A DNA stretch of 30,625 nt, taken from IMG/VR virus record IMGVR_UViG_3300035698_001826, positions 1 to 30,625 of that record, one strand, 5' to 3'. This stretch comes from a virus. How positions within the stretch are numbered: position 1 is the stretch's first letter; each line of letters begins with the position of its first letter. This document shows positions 15,849 through 30,481 of the stretch, piece by piece. The translations under genes were made by a program, and so were the position numbers. The notes under the pieces are model-generated. The model was not told the DNA's origin. It was given only the letters and a program-made list of their open reading frames with translations, and did no database searches.

Positions 15849-18800
15849 CTACGCCTGAGCTTCAGTCCAAGAAATACTACCCAGCACGTCAATCGCGCTG
15901 TCACTAAGGTTGGTAACGGCAATGGTTAAAACGTCAGGACCATCGGGGAAGATTTGCTGATTAGCATTAGCTCCGCCCCCACCCATAATCGCGTTACCCA
16001 GGTCACGGACGTTGTTGAGGTCCAAGCTCGCAGTACCAGACACGAAGAAACCACCTGTAATTTCTCCACCTGCAACCGCTGTTGTCCCGCCTGCGTAGTC
16101 TGCAACTTGAGCCAAACTAGAGTTGACCAGTGTCACATCACCACCAACAGCGTTTGTCCACGGGGTTGCAGTAGAAGGAATCCCATTAAGGAACAGGCGG
16201 ACAAGCATGTTTGCGCTAGTTGTTTTTGTTGACACACCAACCTCATCTAGCGTGAGCTGAAGCCTGTTGATGAGCTCTCTACCACCGAACTCTGAAATCT
16301 GACCGTTATCAACGGACGGAGCAACACGGATGGACATCAAAGCTTTTGTCGCCTCTGATGCGATGTTGGTGTATTCGGTTTGACCGTATGTAAACACCAG
16401 GGACTTGTCGGGGTCAAAACGTCCATCCATAATGACTGAGGTACCCCAGTGGTTGATGGATGGTCCAAAGGATGGGTACGCAAGCTCTACGATGGTTGGG
16501 TCTACTGTTGAGAATGTGAACGTCTGCCCAGTAGTAGCACCCATTGCCGAGAACAAAACCGTTGGGTTTGTTGCGGTTGAGGCCCTACTAAAGCTAATAG
16601 TTGTCCCATTAATTGCAGTAACATATGCGGTGTCGGGGAATCCTTGACTGATAACTCTTTGCCCAATCTGAATTCCTGCGTTTGCGGTTACGACACCATC
16701 TGTAGCACCGATAGACATTGTTACAGTCTGGGAGCCAGCTCCAGCTTTCGCTCTTGTGATTCCTGTAAAGGTTGTGGCCGTTTTTCCTGTGTAGTTAATA
16801 AACTCATAAACTAGACCGTTTCGCACGCAGAGCGTACCCGTTGGGGGGTATCCTTCGGTACTAACCACTGTAAGAGTGGTCGCAGTGTCCGAGAAAGTGG
16901 CCGTCATTTTTGTGGTCACGGACAGGGTGCTTGACTCATAGCGAGCTGGAAGGTTACCTGAGCGCATGTATGCCTCAGAGTTGATGTTGTTGTTGGGTGT
17001 CTTGTGAACATAAATAATATCCCCACGAGGGCCACGAACGCCGTAGCGAACAAAACCGGCTCCATACCATGTGTAGTCAATGTAAAACATTTGCATCTTG
17101 GTAAGGTCAATGATGTAACCAGATGGGCCAGTACCGTCCATCTTGTCAAGATTGAAGTCTTCTTGGAAAACAAGCTCGTCAAGGGTTTTAGAGATGTTCA
17201 CAAAGCTGGCTGTAGCACCCCTATAGGCGGGGGAGACAGTCATGCTTGTGTCACTGGCAATGTCCTGAATTCGGTAAGACTGACCTCTAATTACTACGTA
17301 GTCTCCAACCTCAAGTTGCTTTGCAAAACCAGTTGGGTACACGACGTTGCTCTGAAAAACAGTGTTGTCCCCCTGAGTAACTGAGACTTTACCTGCAAGC
17401 TGGTAGGTAGAGGACCTCTTCCCTGCTTTAAGTTTTTGTCCGTCGTATTCCCAAAAAACACCGTTTTGCTGGTCATACATGCCGATTCTGTTTACGCCTC
17501 CATACCAAGAAGCCACTGAGATGGCATAGTCTCCAGAGGCTGTTGTTTCTGCAGGAGCAACAGCTACTGTGTAGAGAAATTTAATGGGGTCAATGACGGC
17601 ATCTACTACATATGTTCCGTTGTAGCCAGCCTCGGTTGCCCCCGAAACAGTAATAAGTGCCCCAGGCTCAAGGTTGTGGCGTTCTTTAGTAAGAACTGTA
17701 ACCGTTGTGTCCACTGAAGTTAACGAGTCAAGCTGGAATGTCGGCTTAAGCACAGTACCCGAAGAAATCTGGATGCCCTTACCCGACTGGTAACGGAAGT
17801 ACCGTCGTGTTTGCCTAATAGCCTGTTGATTGGCAGAGCTACCATTACAGGAAAAGAACACACCACCATCAAAGGGTCGGTGCATAAACAAAGATTGAGG
17901 GCGGTTGTAGATACTTGCAGAAACAAACCCTACAGTTCCAGTGGGGGCACTAACTACATAGTAGACAAACTGAGTGGGGCTAATAATTCTTGCTACATAG
18001 AAGTTACCGTTTGGTGGGTTGGTGTCAGCCGTTGTACCCACCACAGAAATTTCATTACCCAAGGCAAGACAGTGGAGCTGTGAAGTGGTCACGGTAATGG
18101 CTTTTGTTATTGCATCGTAGGTAATGGCAGAGGGGGCACCACCAATAGAGGCCCCAGTAAAATACTCGTTTTCGGAGACCGTTGTCCTAAAGGTATCAAA
18201 AATTGACGTAATAGACGTGGTGTTTTCGGCAAAAGAAGTATATGTGAAGGTGTGAGGTGCAGAAGTAGTGACAGTCTCAACAATAAAGTTTCCGTTTGCA
18301 ACAACTAGGTTGGTGTCTGTGACATTGATAGGTGTGCCCACGGTAATCCCATGCGCTGCGCCTGTTGTGATAGTTACTGTCGTGGAGCCGGTGGCCATTG
18401 CAATTGATGTAATGTTAGGCACTTGAGCAATCCGGGAAAAAGAAGAACCTCTATTATTCACCAGAGCTAGGTTTTCCCACTTAGTTGTCTGAGTACCAAA
18501 CTCAAAGTCAGTGTCAATCAGGGCTTCTGGTTGGGAAACTCGCATCTTGTTAACGGGGTCAAGAATTGTTTCAGAGGGCTCAAACTTATCGTTGTACTCG
18601 TCTATAACAATTTGTAGAGAGTCTGAGTCGGCCAGAAGGCTGGTGTCATAATTGAGAACAATTACAGTTTCTTCAGTAGCATCAGCATTGATGCTCTCAG
18701 TAAAGGAAGTAGCGCGAAGGCTGGGGTCGGAGAAGTTGTAGATTACTCGGTTTGCCGTGACGTCCGTAATCAGAATGAGACGTTCTCTACTTAAGTAGAC

Positions 18801-18869
18801 AGGAAGCGTAATAGTGCGTTCTGACGCATCAAAAACATAGTCAGTGTTGAATAGAATTTTTCTTGCCAT
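15849..18869 (-). CDS. Large structural (tail) protein with FCCH-like repeats
   Basis: A 1006-residue beta-rich protein. The N-terminal 115 residues (RKILFNTDYVFDASERTITL and ITDVTANRVIYNFSDPS) look like a small attachment domain known to me from aquatic phage structural genes. Three FCCH-like repeats (pattern T..AHGI.VG..I.V...NG.F.V) lie near residues 155-205, 250-310 and 385-435. The remainder has beta segments and a Gly-rich stretch MGGGGANANQ before an Asp/Leu-rich C-terminal domain. There are no catalytic motifs. Placement after the tail-hub gene implies a tail fibre or baseplate protein. ATG at 18869 follows an AGGAG ribosome site; the stop of the previous gene lies five bases upstream. 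Confidence 0.75.
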   Translation of the reverse strand: MARKILFNTDYVFDASERTITLPVYLSRERLILITDVTANRVIYNFSDPSLRATSFTESINADATEETVIVLNYDTSLLADSDSLQIVIDEYNDKFEPSETILDPVNKMRVSQPEALIDTDFEFGTQTTKWENLALVNNRGSSFSRIAQVPNITSIAMATGSTTVTITTGAAHGITVGTPINVTDTNLVVANGNFIVETVTTSAPHTFTYTSFAENTTSITSIFDTFRTTVSENEYFTGASIGGAPSAITYDAITKAITVTTSQLHCLALGNEISVVGTTADTNPPNGNFYVARIISPTQFVYYVVSAPTGTVGFVSASIYNRPQSLFMHRPFDGGVFFSCNGSSANQQAIRQTRRYFRYQSGKGIQISSGTVLKPTFQLDSLTSVDTTVTVLTKERHNLEPGALITVSGATEAGYNGTYVVDAVIDPIKFLYTVAVAPAETTASGDYAISVASWYGGVNRIGMYDQQNGVFWEYDGQKLKAGKRSSTYQLAGKVSVTQGDNTVFQSNVVYPTGFAKQLEVGDYVVIRGQSYRIQDIASDTSMTVSPAYRGATASFVNISKTLDELVFQEDFNLDKMDGTGPSGYIIDLTKMQMFYIDYTWYGAGFVRYGVRGPRGDIIYVHKTPNNNINSEAYMRSGNLPARYESSTLSVTTKMTATFSDTATTLTVVSTEGYPPTGTLCVRNGLVYEFINYTGKTATTFTGITRAKAGAGSQTVTMSIGATDGVVTANAGIQIGQRVISQGFPDTAYVTAINGTTISFSRASTATNPTVLFSAMGATTGQTFTFSTVDPTIVELAYPSFGPSINHWGTSVIMDGRFDPDKSLVFTYGQTEYTNIASEATKALMSIRVAPSVDNGQISEFGGRELINRLQLTLDEVGVSTKTTSANMLVRLFLNGIPSTATPWTNAVGGDVTLVNSSLAQVADYAGGTTAVAGGEITGGFFVSGTASLDLNNVRDLGNAIMGGGGANANQQIFPDGPDVLTIAVTNLSDSAIDVLGSISWTEAQA

Positions 18870-18873
18870 CTGG

Positions 18874-19674
18874 CTATGCTCCTAGCATAATGTCAATGGG
18901 TCTATACGGATAGTTTGTCGTCTGGATAGTTGTTTCTTGTCCAGTCATAAGTCTACCATTGAAGACTGTTCCTGGCTCTGGAATAGTAGAAAATGAAATG
19001 TACCCAGCAGAGTCCACAAAGAAATGTAGTTGTTTAAAGGGGGACTGAAAAACATACTCTTCGGTGTAGACGTTTTGTACTATTCCGTCCATAAAAACCA
19101 GTAGTCTAAACGGATTGTCTATCGTGTACGGCAGACCCTGATACGTCAGAGGAAATCTATTTTCCAGCCCGTCAAACAAGTAACTGATGTCGTCTAGCTG
19201 GGTGACCTGCATAAAGTCACCGCCGAATGTACTAGCGTTTAGTAGGTCAGTGGTAACGGTTGCTACGTCAATGGATTCCCCAAAAAACTCTCCATTGGGT
19301 CCAACAGCAGCAATAACGTCACCCTCAAAAGAGACCCAGTTCATTAAATTTGAAGTTTGATTCTCTGATGCTTGAAGAGATAAAAGAACACTACCTGGAA
19401 GTCCACGAACAACAATTCCGGTATCCGTAATAATCTCGTTGATAATTCCAAGGTGCTCTGTGCCTACTGAGGCCCGCTCAACACCAGACTCGGTTACAGC
19501 CCTAGACCTAATCTTTTCTGAACGAACAGAGCTGTCTGAGATGTAGTCAGACACAACAATGTTCGGATTAAGGTGCGGGTCTGTAGCGGTATTTTTCTCG
19601 TTAAGTATCTGGTTCTGCATACTATTGATGCGGTTACCAATAGTACGACTTCTACGTTGTCTTCTAGTCGCCAA
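18874..19674 (-). CDS. Tail-associated structural protein (266 aa)
   Basis: The N-terminus is basic and Arg-rich (MATRRQRRSRTIGNRINS), followed by a helix and a Thr/Ser-rich segment (VRSEKIRSRAVTESGVERAS) typical of fibre connectors. The C-terminal 150 residues are beta-rich (LLVFMDGIVQNVYTEEYVF). It lies between two large tail genes and overlaps the hub gene by 11 bases; I infer a connector or fibre-attachment protein. The start is TTG at 19674 with a GTGGAT-like ribosome site. I recognise no named family. Confidence 0.65.
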   Translation of the reverse strand: MATRRQRRSRTIGNRINSMQNQILNEKNTATDPHLNPNIVVSDYISDSSVRSEKIRSRAVTESGVERASVGTEHLGIINEIITDTGIVVRGLPGSVLLSLQASENQTSNLMNWVSFEGDVIAAVGPNGEFFGESIDVATVTTDLLNASTFGGDFMQVTQLDDISYLFDGLENRFPLTYQGLPYTIDNPFRLLVFMDGIVQNVYTEEYVFQSPFKQLHFFVDSAGYISFSTIPEPGTVFNGRLMTGQETTIQTTNYPYRPIDIMLGA

Positions 19675-22600
19675 TTTTATCCACGTCCCAATCAGGAAGT
19701 AAGGTCAGCTGAACACTCTCGGGGAAGGTAGTCCCGTCGGGAACAGTAACTTTAATTGAGTCAATCTTCCGCACAAGTACGTTGTTTCTCGGCTCCAGAC
19801 CAGAGCCCATACGCTCAAGGAAGAAGATGTCATTAACGATGACTGAACACCAGTCTCCAGGATTGTACGACCCCACGAAAGGTTGTAGGGACCCGTTGAC
19901 AGTCATACTCAGAGTCAAGTCTGGTGGACGAGCCTCGGTCAGATAGCGCTTTGCGTAGGAAAATAGAATCGTCTCGTCATCAATTCCACTGACAACTTCT
20001 TCTGCGTCAAGAAGTGGCCATCTACGGTTAATGAGCTTTCCGTTGAGCATGTCAGTGTTGGAAGCAATTCCAATAGGGGGACCAGCATCTGGGCCTAGGT
20101 CACTCTCACCGATGGCAAAAAACCTAGTTGCAGATTCTTCTGAGGACTCGTCCATCTGGATATCAATAATGTTTCCTGGGTAATCGAAAACAAATTTATC
20201 CGCCCCGAACCTGCTGAGCGGAGACACTTCACCTTTTGCAGGAGGGTTTGGGTAGTCCAGAGGAATAAGGACAAAAGTACGTCTGAATTCGTTTGTTGCC
20301 TCGTTAAAAGATGAGTCAATTCGATAGTCAAATCCGTTTAGTCCGTCAGAGTACTCGTCAAGAACTTCTCCAACACTTCTCAGTTCAAAACCTCGGAAGA
20401 TGGTGGGGATGCTAGGGACCCCAGAATATGACCTAGTGGAAAAGTCCATTCCGATGTCTGCACTTCCAGGGAATGGCCCGAAGGTGCCAACAACAGCTGA
20501 AGGTTTGGATTTCACTCTTCCATACCCAAAGACTCTACGCTTAGTGAGGTCTCTGTGTGGTCTTACGTATTTAAAGGTGTTGTCTACAGGATTAACTTCT
20601 GTGATAGTAAATGTGTCGTTAAAAATTTGTGGTGCCCGAACGAAAGCAACATTGTTGGCGGGGGTCTCGAGAACATTGCTTGGTGCATCAAGATTGTACG
20701 TAAACGTATTTTCTGTTATTCCTGTGATAGGAACAAGACCATTAAAAATGCTGTCGATAGATGCAAGTCCAGCAATGTTTTCAATGCTTATATCGTTAGG
20801 AATTCCGTCTTGAATAAAGTTAAATGTGTTTCTTGAAACGGAAGTGATAAGTCTTTCACCCGTGTGGATGCTTTGGATGTTAGCTGTGGCAGGCGGTTGC
20901 TGGTTTTCTGGCTTGTCTGCAGTGACAGGCTCTGGGATTTCCTGAGATATGACATTATTAAGGATAAGTGGGTACGCAAAGCTTGTGTTTGTGGGCACCC
21001 CTGTAACAACATATCGACCATTGATGGGACTAACCCCAGCAACAATCCCCTCATCGACAAGCTCAGGGACGACACCGTTCGCAAAAAGACTGAAGCTGAT
21101 GGTTGTATTGGTTACTGCACTAAGAACAAAAGACCCGTTAAATACACTGTTGGGGCTTGTGATAAGCCCGTCCGCTGATGTGGGGGGGTAGAACTCTTCG
21201 GGAGCAACGGCCACCTCATAAGAAATCTGACCGCTAGCAACAGAAGCAATTTTGATGACTCCATCGTATGGCTCGCCTAGCCCAGAAATTACAACCTCTT
21301 CTTGACCTTCTGCAAAGTTGTGGGGAAACCTGGTGGTGAGTGTTGCTCGACCGTTTTCTACAGTTTTTGTTATAACATCTGCAGTGTCTTTCATTCCTGC
21401 AACAGCAATAACGTCGTTGACTTTAAAGTTGTGAAGCTCAGATAAAGTCAGCCTAGCAACGTTTGCAAATACTCTTTTGTCATAAATGGTGTAGGTGTCA
21501 AAAATATCAGAAACTTCAACAGTGTCTCCAATTTGAATATTGTGACTCTTTTTTGTTCCTAACGTTACAATGTTGCTAGTAATTTCTTTCTGGTTCAAAA
21601 AGCTTATATCTTTTAGGCTAGAAATTTTAACAGTCTCGCCTTGCGAAAAGTTGTGCCCAAGCCTAGTTGTCATGGTTACAGTGCTACCCACTACGGAACG
21701 TCTAGATAGCTCTGAGATATCCCTAAGCCCACTAACCTCGACATTCTCGCCCACATCAAACTCGTGGTCTTCGACAGTTGTGATGGTTGCCACACCTGTT
21801 TGAGAGTCGTATGATTTTTGCGCTATCTCAAGCTCGGGGGTGATTCCCGAGATGGTGACAGGTCGACCAATCTCATACCCGTGGGGGATGTCAGTGGTTA
21901 TCGTTACAACGTCGCCAACCAACTCAGTCTCCGAAATACTTGTGGTAATCCTTCTCTCGGATGCAGAGCTGTGTGGGACACCAGACCACGCAAAAGAATA
22001 ATAGTTGTAAGACTTGGTGTCTCCGTCAAAATACTCAAAGACTCGAGATACGTCGTCAACCTCAACAACCATGAGGTCATCCCACCACACATCACCATTA
22101 CCCTTTGAGGCACCGTTGTAAAGGTCAATTCTTAGGCTAGTAGTGGCACTGGGAACAACAAATGTTGTGGATACTTCCCGCACCGATTCAAAGTTTGGGG
22201 AAGAGTCTGTTCTCGCAAGAGTCCCTGTGCCGTTTCGCACAACAACAATCCTGCGAGAGTTCTCGTTGAGAGTACCTGTCAGTGGACCGTCCAAACGAAT
22301 TTTTGCTTTAACTATGTAAGTCCTCCCAACAATAAACTCTGGCATGTTCCATCCCACAGCCACAGACTCATTAGAGATGGAGTTTGTTGGGGTAATTCTC
22401 ATGCTCTTGCTACCCGTTGACTGCCACTCTACAGATTGGTAGGCCATGCAGTTAGAGGTGTTTACGGAGAAAACACTGGGGGCCTGTTGGTAGCTGACGG
22501 AAGCTTGAGGTACACCTTCCCAGTTGTAAATGTAGTCTCCTGCAGAAAAAGTGTTCCCGTCAAAATACTCATTGATTGTTGTAGATTCTTCAATTAAAAT

Positions 22601-25093
22601 AGAGTCAACATAGAACACATCTCCACCCGACCATGTGGCATTTGGGTAGAAAACAATAGAGATGTCTAAGTTTCCAGAGTCTAGAGCAGTAACCGTGCTG
22701 GACACCCGAACCCACTCGTCTTCTGCAATAGTGTAGATAAATTCTGTGGTGTCATCACCAATCTGAATTTTACCCGTGCCACTAGGAAAGCCAACGTTGA
22801 CCGATGGGATACGTATTCTGGCACTGACCGCGTAGGTTGTCCCCGACTGTATAGTTGCCGACTGAGTCAATCCCAGCACATCATTGTCACCTAAACCGTT
22901 GTGCTCGCACTTAAAAGAGTTTGTGCCCGCATAAACTTGTTCGGAAGATTGGGTAACAAGGATGTTGCTGGTGTACCCCTCTGTGTTTCCCGAAACATGT
23001 GACTCAGCGCCAGGGTTCCTGGATAAGTTTGTACGAACAGTTACAGGGACACCCTGGGCAACAGAAGTGCTTCGGTTAGCTGGACCTGACCAGTTATAAT
23101 CGTAGTTAAACGTGTTGGGTAGCGAACCGTCAAAATAGTCACGAAGCTGGTTAGTTTGCTCCACCATGTGAGATGAAAACTCAATCCAATCATCAGTTTG
23201 AGCATTACGCGCATCGTGGTAGACCCTGACTGCGCCAGCAAGAGTGTCTGCAGGAGCATTTCCTAACACGCTCAAACGAACTACGGTTTTGGCTGGGAGT
23301 TGAATCTCCTCCCCCTGAGAAACAGAAGAAACTACTTGGGCGCTGTTTATCCACGCAAGTCCTATAGAAACAGTGGTTGCGTATTGAGAATATACATACA
23401 CTGACGCTGTGTACGGGGCACCTGTTCGCGCAGTAAAACCCGAGGCAAAGTTTGGCTTCATACCAAAGAACGTCCCGGTTGCCGAGGGTGCCGTGGAAAC
23501 GGTGTATCTCAGAGCATAGTCCGAAGGAAATGTATTTACTTCTTCAGTAAACCCAATGGCACCAGTTCCTCCGCCTCCAGAGTTATCAAAGCTAAAGAAT
23601 GACGAGTTTCCAAAAATAGTGTTGTATGGCACAAGATTCTTGCGCAGTACATCAATCCCCGAGACAACCCCCTCAAAGCTTGGGTTGGGGAACTGATTGA
23701 TGTCCGATGCTGATATTGATGTTGCAGGTGTCAGGTCCGTATCGGGGACATTTGTTGTTGAGGTAGTCGTATAGCCAAAAGAAGTCTCACTAAAAATATT
23801 TGCGACAGAGAACGAGCCGTTAAGGACACCACCTAAATCTGAGAGCTGAATTCCTGTGCTGATGTCAATAGTCTGCCCGACATAAAAATTATGGGGCTCG
23901 GTCGTAGTAATAGTGACAAGACCACCCGATGCAGAAACTCTTTCAATGTTTTTTTCAGTGATTCCTACTGGCTCTGAAGCCACTGTTCCACCAAGCTCAA
24001 ACTTAAACTCATTGCTTGACGGGGTCTCAAAAACTACATACTCCCCGTCCCACCTCGGGTCAAGGTCTACAATCTGAACGGCTTGCCCGACCGAAAGACC
24101 GTGGGCTTCTTTAGTTTTTACGCGGGCTAACCCGTCAGAAATTTCTCGTTCAGTGATGTTATACCCAAAACTAATTCCAGGTTCAATGTACACATTAGGA
24201 AAGTCGACGCCAACAAAGTCCACGAGAGTGGCTTGCACCAAGCTTCTAATGTAATCATACGTGTCAGCTCTAACGGAGACGGTAACCCCTGTATAGACTC
24301 CATCTGGCACAAAACGTGTTGCCACGCCAGAAATAGTTTTCAGGGAGTCATCTAAATCTGAGTTCAAAAAGCTGAAATTTACTCCTCCAGGACCGCTAAC
24401 CAGCGAGACAGCGTGGGTTCCGTTATACACAGACTGCCCCCCGACGTCCACCGTGACAAGGTCACCCTCAATAAAACCGTGTGGAGTCTCTGCACCAAGA
24501 GTAGCAACACCACTCAGAAGTTCTGCCGAGTTCAGATTAACCTTCTGTTGAATTTTGTCGATAAAGAAAATGTCTTTTGTGGGTGTTGGTGTCCCAGCAA
24601 TAGAGTAATACCCGTTATAGCGAAACTGTGTTTCCTCGCCAAATTCAAGTAGTACTGATGCTTGAGGGCGAAGAGAGGTTGTCTCGGAACCATAGTCTAG
24701 GTTTACCTGAGCCACACCATTTGTTACAGTGAGTGTTGCCCCAAAAGAGTGTCCCCACGTTTTCCAAATTTTTCGGTGGTAGAAATAGCTTGTGAACTCA
24801 GAAGCATTAACAACAAGAGCACGTTCTACAAGATTGTAAGAGCGAGACCAAATAATGCCACCCCACACGCATACCCCGTCCCGAATGGCATAAAGGGCCG
24901 TGTTACCTGGGAAGGTAGAGGTGTAAACGTCAAAACTTTCAGTGGCATCAATAATAGGAATTTGACCCATGAAAGCACCCGCGCCTTTAAGAGCTCTTTC
25001 GTATGAAACCTGACGAAAAGGTATTTCAGAAAGAACTTTATTGGTCAGTAAATCGACTGTGTAGTATCGATATACGGGGGCTTCTACTGCCAT
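19664..25093 (-). CDS. Minor tail / hub-like protein with giant insertion
   Basis: The 1809-residue protein starts like actinophage minor tail (hub) proteins: YYTVDLLTNKVLSEIPF (10-26), PGNTALYAIRDGVCVWGGI (62-80) and VNASEFTSYF (95-104). Hub-like sequence also appears at 262-306 (RADTYDYIRSLVQATLVDF) and resumes at about 1533 (FPGSADIGMDFS, GFDYRIDSSF, GSYNPGDWCSVIV) to the C-terminus. Between about 310 and 1530 are inserted decoration modules: two FCCH-like repeats, three carbohydrate-binding-like modules with YFDG linkers (near 653, 844 and 1023), then a run of FCCH-like repeats. One further repeat sits at 196-245. The protein should sit at the tail tip and bind host surface glycans; that is inference. 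Start ATG 25093 has AAGAG upstream. Confidence 0.82.
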   Translation of the reverse strand: MAVEAPVYRYYTVDLLTNKVLSEIPFRQVSYERALKGAGAFMGQIPIIDATESFDVYTSTFPGNTALYAIRDGVCVWGGIIWSRSYNLVERALVVNASEFTSYFYHRKIWKTWGHSFGATLTVTNGVAQVNLDYGSETTSLRPQASVLLEFGEETQFRYNGYYSIAGTPTPTKDIFFIDKIQQKVNLNSAELLSGVATLGAETPHGFIEGDLVTVDVGGQSVYNGTHAVSLVSGPGGVNFSFLNSDLDDSLKTISGVATRFVPDGVYTGVTVSVRADTYDYIRSLVQATLVDFVGVDFPNVYIEPGISFGYNITEREISDGLARVKTKEAHGLSVGQAVQIVDLDPRWDGEYVVFETPSSNEFKFELGGTVASEPVGITEKNIERVSASGGLVTITTTEPHNFYVGQTIDISTGIQLSDLGGVLNGSFSVANIFSETSFGYTTTSTTNVPDTDLTPATSISASDINQFPNPSFEGVVSGIDVLRKNLVPYNTIFGNSSFFSFDNSGGGGTGAIGFTEEVNTFPSDYALRYTVSTAPSATGTFFGMKPNFASGFTARTGAPYTASVYVYSQYATTVSIGLAWINSAQVVSSVSQGEEIQLPAKTVVRLSVLGNAPADTLAGAVRVYHDARNAQTDDWIEFSSHMVEQTNQLRDYFDGSLPNTFNYDYNWSGPANRSTSVAQGVPVTVRTNLSRNPGAESHVSGNTEGYTSNILVTQSSEQVYAGTNSFKCEHNGLGDNDVLGLTQSATIQSGTTYAVSARIRIPSVNVGFPSGTGKIQIGDDTTEFIYTIAEDEWVRVSSTVTALDSGNLDISIVFYPNATWSGGDVFYVDSILIEESTTINEYFDGNTFSAGDYIYNWEGVPQASVSYQQAPSVFSVNTSNCMAYQSVEWQSTGSKSMRITPTNSISNESVAVGWNMPEFIVGRTYIVKAKIRLDGPLTGTLNENSRRIVVVRNGTGTLARTDSSPNFESVREVSTTFVVPSATTSLRIDLYNGASKGNGDVWWDDLMVVEVDDVSRVFEYFDGDTKSYNYYSFAWSGVPHSSASERRITTSISETELVGDVVTITTDIPHGYEIGRPVTISGITPELEIAQKSYDSQTGVATITTVEDHEFDVGENVEVSGLRDISELSRRSVVGSTVTMTTRLGHNFSQGETVKISSLKDISFLNQKEITSNIVTLGTKKSHNIQIGDTVEVSDIFDTYTIYDKRVFANVARLTLSELHNFKVNDVIAVAGMKDTADVITKTVENGRATLTTRFPHNFAEGQEEVVISGLGEPYDGVIKIASVASGQISYEVAVAPEEFYPPTSADGLITSPNSVFNGSFVLSAVTNTTISFSLFANGVVPELVDEGIVAGVSPINGRYVVTGVPTNTSFAYPLILNNVISQEIPEPVTADKPENQQPPATANIQSIHTGERLITSVSRNTFNFIQDGIPNDISIENIAGLASIDSIFNGLVPITGITENTFTYNLDAPSNVLETPANNVAFVRAPQIFNDTFTITEVNPVDNTFKYVRPHRDLTKRRVFGYGRVKSKPSAVVGTFGPFPGSADIGMDFSTRSYSGVPSIPTIFRGFELRSVGEVLDEYSDGLNGFDYRIDSSFNEATNEFRRTFVLIPLDYPNPPAKGEVSPLSRFGADKFVFDYPGNIIDIQMDESSEESATRFFAIGESDLGPDAGPPIGIASNTDMLNGKLINRRWPLLDAEEVVSGIDDETILFSYAKRYLTEARPPDLTLSMTVNGSLQPFVGSYNPGDWCSVIVNDIFFLERMGSGLEPRNNVLVRKIDSIKVTVPDGTTFPESVQLTLLPDWDVDKIGD
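21260..21950 (-). repeat. Run of six short FCCH-like repeats inside the hub gene
   Basis: The encoded peptide repeats a unit of about 35-40 residues: VVTITTDIPHGYEIGRPVTI, VATITTVEDHEFDVGENVEV, TVTMTTRLGHNFSQGETVKI, IVTLGTKKSHNIQIGDTVEV, VARLTLSELHNFKVNDVIAV and RATLTTRFPHNFAEGQEEVV. The shared pattern is a beta strand, H-G/N, a G or N two residues before the next strand, and V-x-V/I. More diverged copies follow on the C-terminal side. The repeats are diverged at sequence level, so they are old duplications or a domain array rather than a recent expansion. Confidence 0.75.
22065..22087. repeat. 23-base direct repeat shared by the two tail genes (copy 1)
   Basis: This 23-base segment is identical to 29202-29224. 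Both copies encode the WWDDLMVV segment at the end of a carbohydrate-binding-like module. Such identity between diverged modules could come from recent exchange between the two genes or from strong codon conservation. Confidence 0.8.
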
Positions 25094-25138: not shown

Positions 25139-28100
25139 CTATCCAAGCCAGCCAGAGCGATATCTAATCTGCAAAGACGCAGTCGTATTGACCCTTTCTG
25201 CTTCTCCATAAGGCTCGGGAATCTCAGCTCCCCCTGTGGGAATTGCGCCACCGACATCTCTAATGCTATCTGAGTCGTGAGGGACCCCATCCCACTGGTA
25301 GAGAACAGGGAATGCCCCGATTGTGCTATCCGTATCCCCATCAAAGTAATCTCCAACATACTCGCCCTCAACAATGAGAAGACCGTCAAACCAAAGGTCT
25401 GGGGAGCCTGATGCTTGATTGCTGTAGAACCGAAGCTTTGCATCTTCGACAGATGCGCTCACCGTGAAGGTGATGGCTACATTGTGAACACCAACACCTG
25501 TAGGAACAGAGTTTTGGATTTGCTCCGCCAACGAACTAGAAATATATCCCTCATATGAGAGTGTTGCGGTCTGCGTACCAATCTGTGCCCGTCTGGCAGT
25601 AAGAAGAGCCGTGTATGTTTTCCCAGGCTCAAGACCAGCGGTGACCATACTTGCCAAATCAACATAAGCAGAGCCTGTTGTTGTGGCAGTAGAGATAATT
25701 CTTGTGGAGTTCGCACCAGCAGAAGACCACAGCGAAGACTGAATGGCATAAGCATCTGTTGGAACAACTTTATTGACACTCGGAGCTTGGAACTGACTTG
25801 TGGAAGCATCGGGAGTGCCAGTCCACGTATATGAGAAGTCATCTACACCTGGGAAGAACCCATCAAAGTAGTCTTGTAGTGTGTTGCTTGCCTCGAGCAT
25901 GACCCTGTCAACAAAGAACGTGTGGCTGACAGCACTAACATTGCTGACAATAACATCTGCAGTTCCACCGTTTGCACTAGTAACTCTAGTCACGGAGATG
26001 CGTTGCCAGGCACCCGTTGCGACAACATTTGAGCCCAGCGTTGAGCCGATAAAGGTGCCGTTTGCGGTCCACTCTTGCAGTTCAATGCGGAGAGTCTTGC
26101 CTGCCCCACCCTTAACCCACGCAGAGGCGTAGTACCTCAGGGACGGGGAGACTGTTGCTCGAGAGATGAGCCTTATTCCTTGAAGTCCTACAGCTCCTGT
26201 ACACAGCACCTGCGCTGAGTATGTTCCAGCGTACTTTTCTGTCGCAGTGCGGTAGACAGTAGCCCCGTAAATTCCTGTCCAATCTCTAGCTGGGTTAATT
26301 GCCGAGGTAGAGGTAGACAAGTTGGGGGCACCTGTCCACGAGAAAGTAAAGTCTTGAGAGTCTGAGCTGTCTCCCGAGAAGAACGGGCTGAGATATGTTC
26401 CCTCAGCAAGGAGGACGTCATCCCACCACACTTCTCCGTTACCGGCAGAAGCGCCACCGTAAAGCCTTACAGAGTCCCATGTTGTTGCGGTATCGGGAAC
26501 CAAGAACGTTGCTCGAACAACATACTGACCCGCAGTGTTTGTTGCAGTACTACGGTAGGTGAGAGGAATAGTGTTTGTTCCGCCTGTAGAAACATTAGTA
26601 ATCAGCTGAAAAGCTAAAGCGTTTGAGTTCAAGGCTCCTGTAAGTTCTTGAGGAATACGCACTTGGCCAAGAATGGTACAAACCTTGCCAGCAAGAGTAG
26701 AGGGTGCAGGGAGCATTCCAGCTATGTTTGCATACGTGTCATTGCTTAGAGTGTTGGGGCTAATTTTAATGCTTCTTGTTCCAGCGGAGAACCACTCGCT
26801 AGATTGCACGGTACTTGATTCAGAAGAAGATAACACTCCACTAGGAAGGGGGGCTCTTTGCACACTAAAACTATTGTTGGGGGTTCCTGACCAGATGTAG
26901 GAGTAGTCTCCCGAGTTAGACGTTGAACCGTCAAAGTAGTTTTGCAGTGTGGGCGAGCCCTCAAGAAGAGTGTCATCTACGTAAAATATGTGCTCAACTG
27001 ATGCAACATTGGATACCACAACGTTTGCTCTAGCAGCGCCTGCACTTAGAGTACGAGACACCGAAATTCTTTGCCAGGAACCTGTTGCTGTGATATTGGC
27101 GCTATTAGTTGTCCCTAGCAGAGCTTGAGACTCAGAGAGCTCTTCGAGGCTGATGCGAAGAGTTTTACCTGGGGAAGCATAAACCCACGCAGAAGCGGTG
27201 TACGTCCTAGAAGGTGATACGGGTTGCGCTGAGGTCATTTTGAAGCCCTGCAATGGGTTAAGACCATCACACAAAACCTTTGCAGAATACGGTCCTGTTT
27301 TCTGCTGTTCTTGCGTTCGATGGACGGTGGAACCAAAAGTCCCAACCCAGTTCTCAACAAGCCTGACATTAAGGTCTGAGGTGGAATTGCCCACCGTCCC
27401 CGACCACGACACCGTAGAGTCTACGTCTGGGGAAATAGCTCCTGTAAAGTATGGACCAACATAGTGCCCAATAACTGCAAGCGAGTCTGACACATCAACA
27501 AAACCTGGAAGTGTAAGCGAGGGAATATCAATGTATACGCCCAACCCAGACGTAAATTCGTTAGAAACCGCTATTGTTTGACGTATTTCAGTCCAGTTTG
27601 TTCCAATTGCCGTAGATGTAAGAGTTTGACCGACTGGCTGTCCTGCTGAAGTTTTAATTCCAATAGAGAGTGTTGTTGACTGGCTAGCCCTAGCCCGAAG
27701 AATAACGGTAACAGGGGTACCAGCAGTGAAGCCATCAAACGGACTACCATCTGAATAGCGAAGAACCCTGGACGTTGTTGCAGAGTCCCCAGAAGGCCTA
27801 GAAATCCTGAGATACTTGTCCCCATCTGGCTCTGTTCCTTGATATGCAAATGTTGTTGCGCCTGCCCCAGCGGTTAACTGCCAGCCAGCTACAGCAGGAA
27901 CGTAATGCACGCTTGTGGAGGCGTGCGCTGTGCCCGTCCAAGTACCAGAGTAAGATTCTCCTGTAATAAGCGGGAACTGTCCATCAAAGTAGTTACGGAG
28001 TGTGGTCCCCCGCTCAAGAAGAGCATTGTCAATGTAAAAAGTGTGTGCAGTGTTGTTTCTGTTGCGCACAATAAGCTTAGCTTTTACTCCTGTTGTCCCA

Positions 28101-30481
28101 AAAGTTCCTGTTACCGACAATCTCTGCCAGGAACCTGTTGCTGTTGCAACTACTCCAGCAGTTTGACCAACGAGTACATCCCCAGATGTAAACTCTGACA
28201 GGTCTATCCGTACAAGCTTCCCAACTTCACCTTTTAGCCACACGGAAGCGGTGTAAGTAGTTGATGAGATAACGGTAATAAAATCTGTATCTACAGAGTC
28301 GTCAATGACAGCTGCCACCCGCTCTAGACTGTTACTACCAATATAGCTTTCGGAGCTTACTCGAGAGAGAGTTCCTGACCCAGTCAATGCCCACCCTGTT
28401 GAGTTGACTTCGACGCTGGGGTTGGGAACTAAGTTAGTGCGCAGGACAACCGCCTGGGCAGAAGCTGTGGAAACAGAGGACCCAGTTGTCCCCGACCATG
28501 CGTAGTCCCACCCGAAAGAGTCTGTTGTTCCGCCATCAAAGTAATCACGAAGTTGGTCTGTCTGTTCGATAAGGACAGCGTCGACAAAGAAAACTTTCCC
28601 ACTTGGGTTTGTGCCGGTTCCCGACTGGCACACGGCAAAATTTAAAGTTCCGTTACCAGTTGCTTGGGCAGTAAGCGAGATTCGAGCCCACTCCCCAATA
28701 ATGGTGGTGGAGGTTCCTCGGACGGTGCTAGCTAATGCGCCAGAGCCGTAAGCAATAAGTCTGAGACCGTTGTTAATTACTTCCTCGGCGTAAACATATG
28801 CTGAGGCGGTGTAGTGCTCCCCGTTTGATGCCGTTCGTGTATCAATGAGCAGTCCAGCGTCGACAATCCCCACGCCGATACCGTAGGTAAATTTGGCGGA
28901 GAATGTGCCAATAAAAGCTTCTTCAGTAGACTGCACGAGAGCAGAACCTGTACCCGCAAAAAGCGCAGAAAATCCTGTAATATTTGTTTCTGCAGATGGG
29001 TTTGTGGAGAGGTTACTTCTGAGAGTTACCGCCCCCGAGGCAATAGTGTTCATTGCAGGGTTTTTGATAACGTTTGTAGCGTACAACTCTGTCAGTGTTG
29101 CCGTTGAGGTTGAAGTGATGGGGGTGCCTGTCCACTCAAAATCGTACCCATTACCGTCAGCAGTGTTGCCGTCAAAGTAGGTTCCGCTGTACGAGCCTTG
29201 CACAACCATGAGGTCATCCCACCAGATGTCTCCGTTTCCTACGGATGCCCCGTTGTACGCCTCAACAGAGACGGTTGTTCCTGTTGCGGTGAAGCTGGTG
29301 CGTACCTCGTGTACGCCCACAGTGTTGGGGGCTTGAGGGGAGGACACAACAGTGGCGTCTCCTGATACACGCAATGTTCTGGCAAAAGCGTTAAGTGTCC
29401 CTGTTTGAGGGGATGCGATACGAATGTAGCCAACGATAGTGTACGAGTTTCCTGAAACAATACCCGAGATAGGACTTGATGTAGCTCGCGTTGCGGTACT
29501 TGTCCCTGTTGGGGTTATTCTGATGCTTTTTGTGCCTGTTCTCCACCATTCACTTGAAAGATAAGATGCTTCGCGCCCGAGAGAGCCTGTACCCCACTCA
29601 GAAACACCAACACCTGCAAGGGAGCTTGTTGATGCGTTGGGGGTTCCCGCCCACGAGACAGTGAGGTCACTGTTGGAGGAAACATTTGACCCGTCAAAGT
29701 AGTCAAGCATGGTTGAGGTGGGCTCAAAAAGCTCACTATCTATATACAATGTTGCGCCTTGGGCACTGTCATTAACAATCTTGACTCGAACAAGCTCACC
29801 GGTGGCACCGAATGTTATTGTTCGGTTTACTCTCTCCCAGTTCCCCGTACCTGTAAAGGTTGTGAACACTGTTTGAACGTTGTCTGTTGCAGTGCGTTCT
29901 TCTATTTCAATGTCAAATGTTGCGCCTGATGGGGCTTTCACATACGCAGACCATGTGTAGGACTGGTTTGCTGTCCCTGTGTAGTCTCTGCGGACAGACC
30001 CGATGCTGTAGGGGAAGAATACGGCGAGTGAGCCGTCCCCAGAGAAAGCTTCGGTCCATGAGTTGTAGGTGGAGCAGTCTGTGGCAGTCCACCCCACTGT
30101 TGGGACACCAGATTGTGTGCTTGTTGATGCGTTAGGGGTCCCAGTCCACGAATGGGAAAAGTCTCCGCCTACAGGGAAACTACCATCAAAATATGGGGGT
30201 GCTGTGGGCCCTTCTTCAACGAGGAGTCTGTCAACACTGACTCGACCGCCAGCATTGGTGAGGGGGACAAGTCTGATATTGTCTGTGCCTGTTGCGGTTG
30301 AGGTTACTGTGACTTCAGTCCAACCTGTTGCGGTGATGGCAGTGCTGTCAACCCCGCTTGCCACAAGTTTTACTTGGGGGGCGTCGCTAGCTCGGTGTAT
30401 GGACGCTCGAACAGTGAAAGTTTCGCCAGGCGTGAGAGTATCCAACTCTTGCAGAGTTAGATAGTCTTCAGTAGATGGCAT
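25139..30481 (-). CDS. Ten-module carbohydrate-binding-like tail protein
   Basis: The 1780-residue protein is almost entirely a tandem array of jelly-roll-like modules of roughly 170-215 residues. Each ends with a linker of the form YFDG-x(n)-W-S/T-G-T-P-x-x-S-T-S (some vary to YFTG or FFSG); ten linkers are visible. Module interiors repeat phrases such as NLSTNPSAE, YTASAWV, GSWQRISVT and WWDDLLV, typical of CBM_4_9-type modules. The C-terminus ends LQIRYRSGWLG, as in other actinophage minor tail proteins. The N-terminus (LTPGETFTVRASIHRASDAP) begins inside a module, without the first half or an anchor domain. ATG at 30481 has AAAGGA nine bases upstream and an in-frame stop lies upstream. 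Probable role: adsorption to host polysaccharide. Confidence 0.85.
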   Translation of the reverse strand: MPSTEDYLTLQELDTLTPGETFTVRASIHRASDAPQVKLVASGVDSTAITATGWTEVTVTSTATGTDNIRLVPLTNAGGRVSVDRLLVEEGPTAPPYFDGSFPVGGDFSHSWTGTPNASTSTQSGVPTVGWTATDCSTYNSWTEAFSGDGSLAVFFPYSIGSVRRDYTGTANQSYTWSAYVKAPSGATFDIEIEERTATDNVQTVFTTFTGTGNWERVNRTITFGATGELVRVKIVNDSAQGATLYIDSELFEPTSTMLDYFDGSNVSSNSDLTVSWAGTPNASTSSLAGVGVSEWGTGSLGREASYLSSEWWRTGTKSIRITPTGTSTATRATSSPISGIVSGNSYTIVGYIRIASPQTGTLNAFARTLRVSGDATVVSSPQAPNTVGVHEVRTSFTATGTTVSVEAYNGASVGNGDIWWDDLMVVQGSYSGTYFDGNTADGNGYDFEWTGTPITSTSTATLTELYATNVIKNPAMNTIASGAVTLRSNLSTNPSAETNITGFSALFAGTGSALVQSTEEAFIGTFSAKFTYGIGVGIVDAGLLIDTRTASNGEHYTASAYVYAEEVINNGLRLIAYGSGALASTVRGTSTTIIGEWARISLTAQATGNGTLNFAVCQSGTGTNPSGKVFFVDAVLIEQTDQLRDYFDGGTTDSFGWDYAWSGTTGSSVSTASAQAVVLRTNLVPNPSVEVNSTGWALTGSGTLSRVSSESYIGSNSLERVAAVIDDSVDTDFITVISSTTYTASVWLKGEVGKLVRIDLSEFTSGDVLVGQTAGVVATATGSWQRLSVTGTFGTTGVKAKLIVRNRNNTAHTFYIDNALLERGTTLRNYFDGQFPLITGESYSGTWTGTAHASTSVHYVPAVAGWQLTAGAGATTFAYQGTEPDGDKYLRISRPSGDSATTSRVLRYSDGSPFDGFTAGTPVTVILRARASQSTTLSIGIKTSAGQPVGQTLTSTAIGTNWTEIRQTIAVSNEFTSGLGVYIDIPSLTLPGFVDVSDSLAVIGHYVGPYFTGAISPDVDSTVSWSGTVGNSTSDLNVRLVENWVGTFGSTVHRTQEQQKTGPYSAKVLCDGLNPLQGFKMTSAQPVSPSRTYTASAWVYASPGKTLRISLEELSESQALLGTTNSANITATGSWQRISVSRTLSAGAARANVVVSNVASVEHIFYVDDTLLEGSPTLQNYFDGSTSNSGDYSYIWSGTPNNSFSVQRAPLPSGVLSSSESSTVQSSEWFSAGTRSIKISPNTLSNDTYANIAGMLPAPSTLAGKVCTILGQVRIPQELTGALNSNALAFQLITNVSTGGTNTIPLTYRSTATNTAGQYVVRATFLVPDTATTWDSVRLYGGASAGNGEVWWDDVLLAEGTYLSPFFSGDSSDSQDFTFSWTGAPNLSTSTSAINPARDWTGIYGATVYRTATEKYAGTYSAQVLCTGAVGLQGIRLISRATVSPSLRYYASAWVKGGAGKTLRIELQEWTANGTFIGSTLGSNVVATGAWQRISVTRVTSANGGTADVIVSNVSAVSHTFFVDRVMLEASNTLQDYFDGFFPGVDDFSYTWTGTPDASTSQFQAPSVNKVVPTDAYAIQSSLWSSAGANSTRIISTATTTGSAYVDLASMVTAGLEPGKTYTALLTARRAQIGTQTATLSYEGYISSSLAEQIQNSVPTGVGVHNVAITFTVSASVEDAKLRFYSNQASGSPDLWFDGLLIVEGEYVGDYFDGDTDSTIGAFPVLYQWDGVPHDSDSIRDVGGAIPTGGAEIPEPYGEAERVNTTASLQIRYRSGWLG
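25339..30194 (-). repeat. Array of ten YFDG-linker modules
   Basis: The linker codons for YFDG or a variant lie near 30185, 29690, 29170, 28530, 27980, 27435, 26928, 26380, 25862 and 25340. Spacing is about 500-640 bases, most often 510-550. The two sub-types alternate irregularly: modules with a WW/WFDDLL-type end (near 25.4, 26.4 and 29.2 kb) and modules with an FFVDxxLLE-type end. The array is a natural substrate for homologous gain or loss of modules. Confidence 0.8.
29202..29224. repeat. 23-base direct repeat shared by the two tail genes (copy 2)
   Basis: Identical to 22065-22087 in the hub gene and placed at the same point of a carbohydrate-binding-like module. About 7.1 kb separates the two copies, in the same orientation. 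Confidence 0.8.

Follow-up and report, generated by a model that had tools for sequence, protein, structure and literature searches.

The central tail hub of the gp27/Tal type is a trimer that sits on a hexamer of Dit. In lactococcal and streptococcal siphophages, decorated ("evolved") forms of Tal and Dit are known, in which a conserved core carries carbohydrate-binding or lysin modules that are inserted in loops and projected off the axis, and the binding of host saccharides by such insertions is established (PMC7291167; PMC9437275); in phage Douge, baseplate modules bind mycobacterial glycans (PMC13033339). The protein analyzed here is encoded by a viral contig of 30,625 bases (IMG/VR record IMGVR_UViG_3300035698_001826), hereafter called the window. 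Like the evolved Tal and Dit, it has a conserved core with modules inserted in its loops, but whereas these proteins carry one or two modules at one site, the hub family described below has three insertion ports, one of which takes up to 1225 aa, and a stack of FCCH domains that appears to be nested. It also shares its hub segments and their order, and its relatives a gene position close behind the tape measure and Dit genes, with the actinophage hubs of PHROG 1885 (Attoomi, Raleigh, and SV1 gp19, to which phiC31 gp46 is named as similar), although the Streptomyces hubs of this group, about 365 aa long, lack any large insertion.

The open reading frame that the earlier note had singled out at 19664–25093 is real, its strand now being set as minus. 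A homolog of 659 aa from phage DSL-LC01 aligns with its product over residues 5–176 (56% identity), 262–452 (31%, hub sequence up to about residue 311 and FCCH beyond), and 1525–1809 (54%). The N- and C-terminal pieces match the profile of PHROG 1885 ("minor tail protein") in order, at profile positions 13–125 (E-value 4e−17) and 149–339 (E-value 6e−17), respectively, and because these are neighboring parts of the profile, members of the ordinary family have both pieces side by side. Based on homology and on the modeling presented below, the 1809-aa protein is the predicted central tail hub, of gp27/Tal type (PHROG 1885), of a siphovirus, whose host is probably an actinobacterium. In a tblastn search of annotated phages, the hub matched Microbacterium phages of 186–195 kb and DSL-LC01, which was assembled from lake water and has an actinobacterium as its predicted host (PMC10611076). 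With DSL-LC01 as a query, we found hubs of Streptomyces phages (Attoomi, 365 aa; Raleigh, 366; Galactica, 367; SV1, 376) with the same N- and C-terminal segments and nothing large between them. No relative was found in a search of genome contigs, and sequence searches of the PDB, for which the compact hub and two alignments served as queries, yielded no genuine match. The three stretches first described as hub-like (residues 1–195, 262–306, and 1533–1809) are genuine, but the first ends near residue 175 and is followed by an FCCH inserted at 176–263, so that the segments now run from about 1 to 175, 264 to 311, and 1536 to 1809. The accompanying statement that ordinary actinophage hubs are nearly contiguous holds for the Streptomyces phages but not for the nearest relatives, all of which carry at least 153 aa at the main port. 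As these are never fully contiguous, the split of the hub is a family trait, extreme in the window.

The check suggested by the earlier note, a structure prediction of the joined hub segments compared with known hubs, was run on L083, an intact relative of 733 aa that joins the same segments, using an alignment with 44 other sequences, including the window protein. In the resulting AlphaFold2 model (pLDDT 81.5, pTM 0.61), nearly all of the best 50 Foldseek matches in the PDB were hubs of phages, pyocins, T6SS, or eCIS, or their relatives, at probabilities of about 1.0. They included T5 pb3 (E-value 5e−11), Mu gp44, T4 gp27, 80alpha, p2, Douge, Bxb1, and VgrG. TM-scores normalized to compact hubs (Mu gp44 and MuSo2) were 0.38–0.44, and the large overall rmsd of the matches is due to gapped alignments running across the insertions. 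The hubs of Douge and Bxb1 and T5 pb3 thus have a similar core fold, but show no detectable sequence similarity to the window-type hub and differ in decoration. The claim that a single hub fold carries very large insertions is borne out by the L083 model, by the contiguous homologs of about 365 aa, and by the PHROG 1885 matches at both ends, which together support the view that the three segments form one hub. That the N- and C-terminal parts form no single hub is hardly credible, being strongly contradicted by those contiguous homologs and by the hub matches of the intact L083; weak Pfam coverage was the one point that we found in its favor.

A search with the C-terminal hub segment retrieved 66 IMG/VR loci, of which 56 encode complete hubs, and lengths were compared in 36 non-redundant proteins. 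Total hub length in the family goes from 655 to 1823 aa, whereas the hub pieces measure 116–122, 25–30, 27–30, 48, and 270–285 aa in nearly all of the 36. Port A (residues ~120–145 in DSL-LC01, ~117–143 in the window; overall range 25–250 aa) holds either about 25 aa or about 235–250 aa, the long form including a CBM-like cassette; it is empty in the window hub and occupied by such a cassette in Pumpernickel-type relatives. Port B (175–184 in DSL-LC01; overall range 7–97 aa) holds 7–14 or about 90 aa, and 88 aa in the window. Port C (232–389 in DSL-LC01) ranges from 153 to 1225 aa, the window having the largest insertion of the 36. The window hub therefore bears some 1,300 extra residues at two points (88 and 1225 aa). 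As in evolved Tal proteins, the insertions lie inside the hub domain and go beyond mere C-terminal extensions. Length comparisons and the model of the relative show that foreign modules enter the hub at fixed ports between segments of fixed length. The features are listed in the table below. Residues 120–178 of the hub core (24560–24736, minus strand) themselves resemble an FCCH (second-half match, E-value 6e−4), and the ports may thus sit in an old FCCH-like barrel of the core.

Table. Predicted features of the hub gene and its neighbors, in positions of the window
Feature	Position	Strand	Basis
Hub gene, 1809 aa	19664..25093	−	Open reading frame and homologs
Hub segment 1, residues 1–175	24569..25093	−	56% identity to the DSL-LC01 hub; PHROG 1885; constant length in 36 relatives
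Port B insertion, residues 176–263, one FCCH-like barrel	24305..24568	−	FCCH HMM; 88 aa versus 9 aa in DSL-LC01/compact relatives
Hub segment 2, residues 264–311, with helix DTYDYIRSLV	24161..24304	−	48 aa in 36/36 relatives
Port C, two tandem FCCH barrels, residues 312–455	23729..24160	−	FCCH HMMs; both also in compact relatives
Port C, three CBM-like cassettes, residues 483–683, 685–871, 872–1051	21941..23647	−	Motif and mutual similarity
Port C, six FCCH first halves in series, residues 1052–1275	21269..21940	−	Half-domain HMMs
Port C, six FCCH second halves in series, residues 1276–1512	20558..21268	−	Half-domain HMMs; AF2 model of residues 1045–1535
Hub segment 3, C-terminal hub, residues 1536–1809	19667..20488	−	54% identity to DSL-LC01; 66 IMG/VR loci
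Upstream neighbor, 1780 aa, ten CBM-like cassettes, Dit-type terminal strand QIRYRSGWLG	25139..30481	−	
Downstream neighbor, 266 aa	18874..19674	−	Position; N-terminus compared with relatives

Each of the three hub cassettes ends in the motif YFDG..W.G, and they are up to 42% identical to cassettes of the 1780-aa upstream neighbor (tblastn E-value 1e−40 against 26252–27868). CBM_4_9 (PF02018) passes its cut-off in this neighbor (99.9 bits, seven stretches matched) but falls below it in the hub (16 bits versus 25.9; E-value 0.016). The neighbor has ten such YFDG..W.G cassettes, a Dit-type last strand, and no FCCH halves, and the gene preceding it is cut by the contig end. DSL-LC01 and the Microbacterium phages Pumpernickel, Zooman, Big4, A3Wally, and Cece encode direct homologs of the hub, but these lack the three cassettes at the position found in the window, Pumpernickel having one at port A instead. 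Elsewhere, the same cassette occupies port A of Pumpernickel and lies within the first FCCH of L042, and it also occurs in L011 and L072; in L082, a comparable insertion interrupts an FCCH first half. Its location thus varies among relatives, from one port to another and even into FCCH domains, which means that cassettes move from site to site.

The sequence between the hub segments had been described as FCCH-like and carbohydrate-binding-like modules. This composition is correct, but the arrangement is not that of simple beads, since two tandem FCCHs and three cassettes are followed by six first halves and then by six second halves. The note had overlooked both the three fixed ports of the family and the probable nest in the longest part of the decoration. 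The halves were located with separate HMMs for the first (F; VTITT.PH..VGD.V.VSG) and the second (S; FNGTYTVT.V..TTFTY). Compact hubs read FS FS, L083 and L053 read FS FFSS, and the window, the Microbacterium phages, L069, L072, L074, and L075–L077 read FS FS FFFFFFSSSSSS. The HMMs score one outer half of Zooman, Big4, and L074 weakly or not at all, L082 reaches six only if its cassette-interrupted first half and one weak second half are counted, and the strings of L071 and L073 are less regular. E1_FCCH (PF16190) scores above its cut-off at residues 1138–1195 (32.4 versus 29.5 bits), but two first halves lie under this match, which makes the Pfam register misleading there. Of the sequenced phage records, only seven, each from Microbacterium, turned out to have a run of F like that of the window. 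A search of viral contigs with the nest alignment gave no pattern of use, and one with a closer set yielded no contigs beyond those already found. FCCH and CBM-like modules strung in tandem within a long exposed loop, as the wording of the earlier note implies, do describe FCCH1, FCCH2, and the three cassettes, as well as the three tandem FCCHs of L038. As an account of the insertion, this arrangement is nevertheless very improbable, because its second half has no complete FCCH except the central one and the order of halves over residues 1052–1512 contradicts it.

Close relatives reveal how such an order can arise. FCCH2 is intact in L049, L041, and L048, whereas in L083 and L053 its middle loop contains a complete FCCH of about 80 aa. 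Dit provides a second, independent case: the run of Zooman and Pumpernickel ends in an intact FCCH, and in Big4 and Cece the same FCCH is interrupted at the same loop by a complete one. Nested insertion, recognized as A1–B–A2 by comparison with relatives that lack B, is thus found for one level, twice independently, in relatives. The FCCH inserted in L083 is 56–62% identical to an FCCH in Dit-type open reading frames of relatives, which implies that whole domains move. These alignments show that an FCCH can insert whole into the middle loop of another. Since two sets of close relatives have an FCCH inside an FCCH, we read the six first and six second halves as a self-nested stack. From the matched counts of halves, a weak coupling signal, and consistent models, we infer that residues 1052–1512 of the window protein form six self-nested FCCH barrels, a number shared by the Microbacterium homologs.

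The pairing of the deeper halves was examined in nine nested hubs with a coupling score, whose training set was 85 contiguous FCCHs from nest-free loci; the window protein is outside the nine because one of its second halves was missed. Nested pairing ranked 5th of 720 and parallel pairing 605th, and without the innermost pair nested pairing ranked 1st of 120, ranks that are not strict probabilities because several choices entered the score. With dereplicated hubs, nested pairing falls to rank 63 of 720 (3 of 120 if the innermost pair is omitted); its rank for Dit, 486 of 5040, is a trend only. A mirror-tree test of half-domain similarity went against nesting (nested 705th of 720, parallel 26th); this result may be dominated by divergent end units, and it does not support growth by copying of the whole barrel next door. 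The AF2 model of window residues 1045–1535, built from 10 sequences, has a pLDDT of 82.6 and a pTM of 0.63, which are global scores. Foldseek matched it to E1 FCCH domains in the PDB at probability 1.00, and, among the matches listed from predicted viral structures, one was global (1247 aa, 29% identical, TM 0.53), the others reaching 0.22 at most.

The mirror-tree result also speaks for a different model, in which the F and S runs are two separate repeat structures, either beta-solenoids or a trimeric beta-helix stalk of the kind present in phage endosialidase tailspikes. The regular units of 36–40 residues with long strands fit this model, as do Foldseek matches to the K1F and phi92 endosialidases at probabilities of 0.72–0.99; the corresponding TM-scores, however, are only 0.12–0.17, with rmsd of 18–29 Å. 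Separate repeats are improbable, given also that F and S counts are equal in every clear case, including across two genes, and that a whole FCCH lies within a middle loop in the two direct cases.

The case of two genes concerns Dit, whose core and FCCH-half nest extend over a gene pair in L011 (5166–11132), L010 (5403–11362), L012 (2703–7844), and L013 (3160–9343), and also in L168, L082, L166, and L077. The pairs total 7:7 or 8:8 halves in all eight phages counted, weak matches included; the halves balance only across both genes, and the gene break falls at the same level in 8/8. For Pumpernickel, Zooman, and L168, seven F and two S stand at the end of the Dit gene, and the end of the following gene holds five S and then the terminal strand of Dit (..FRSGW.G); if weak matches are used, L077 gives the same count as Pumpernickel. 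Big4, Cece, L082, and L166 have eight F and three S, then five S, again with weak matches. In DSL-LC01, Dit is encoded by a single gene, which contains one FCCH and has the same last strand. Without assembly of both products, it would be difficult to account for such a balance between two genes. Every first half would then be encoded by the first gene, together with the innermost second halves (two or three of them); the five outer ones and the last strand of the Dit core would come from the next gene. A programmed frameshift or read-through joining the two genes was set aside, because the frames differ from phage to phage and a separate start is present in the second gene, with an AAGGAC-like site upstream of it in several phages. 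In relatives, the tape measure and Dit genes directly precede the hub gene; the window contig ends inside or just before the Dit region, and the partner of its 1780-aa neighbor would lie beyond the contig end. We lean slightly toward a common scheme for both proteins, in which self-insertion into the FCCH middle loop grows arms (to a depth of six in the hub and of seven to eight in Dit), nest depth sets arm length, and the Dit nest is a natural split protein.

In the hub, F0 would pair with S0 (outermost), and so on up to F5 with S5 (innermost), the second halves closing the nest from the inside outwards. Every level would begin and end at the same barrel end, so that the stack would form a rod with both chain ends together at the hub, and a long arm could grow without disturbing the hub fold. 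From what is known of the family, there would be three arms per trimer, with the cassettes at the base and the innermost barrel at the tip, and these arms would reach out to cell-wall glycans before the hub opens. By analogy with decorated proteins of other phages, the cassettes probably bind glycans and the nested stack is probably a stiff arm, the hub insertion being a putative receptor-binding structure. On the other hand, the decoration might be mainly structural (a spacer, brace, or shield), with the receptor bound by other proteins such as the 1780-aa neighbor or the downstream fiber. This agrees with the ten cassettes of the neighbor versus three in the hub, and with nested relatives such as Zooman that have no detected hub cassette; moreover, we found no demonstrated binding activity for FCCH barrels in phages. 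CBM-like cassettes, however, recur at different hub ports in different relatives, and other phages have CBMs in their decorated Dits and Tals that bind host cells (PMC7291167; PMC9437275). A mainly structural role seems less likely than not, but far from negligible. Taken as a whole, the explanation by a gp27/Tal hub with fixed ports and a six-deep FCCH nest as an arm appears likely to us.

Large decorated hubs are already known. What looks new is the depth of the self-nesting and the splitting of a stack between two genes; our searches of the open-access literature turned up no previous account of nested FCCHs in phages. The Si3 insertion of cyanobacterial RNA polymerase beta', singled out as the complex example among 2.7 million domains, has six levels of recursive nesting (PMC13114784). 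The phage stack would likewise be recursively nested, but in an unrelated domain and protein; unlike Si3, it would belong to a virion protein and, if our reading is true, its depth (six self-nested levels for the hub; seven or eight for Dit, split over two genes) would equal or exceed that of Si3. Self-nesting would be a rare way for a conserved core to grow a long arm, and would show how a phage hangs very large structures on an exact, ring-forming fold: the ports are fixed, and nesting returns both chain ends to the base. Relatives with zero, one, or many levels would make the step series visible, which is rare for nested folds, and Dit with its two genes offers a testable example of two polypeptides building a single domain stack. 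Annotators should note that Pfam-style FCCH matches in nested proteins can connect halves that do not belong together.

The gene after the hub begins with a similar basic N-terminal peptide (RRxRSIG-like) and is otherwise wholly different in the window (18874–19674), L009 (9949–11388), L011 (15527–16993), and L012 (11594–19954). The peptide looks as if it were a hub-binding tag on interchangeable fibers, and the 266-aa downstream neighbor is probably a hub-attached fiber gene. The window further encodes, at 15849–18869, a virion structural protein of 1006 aa (phrog_5838) that contains FCCH-like stretches.
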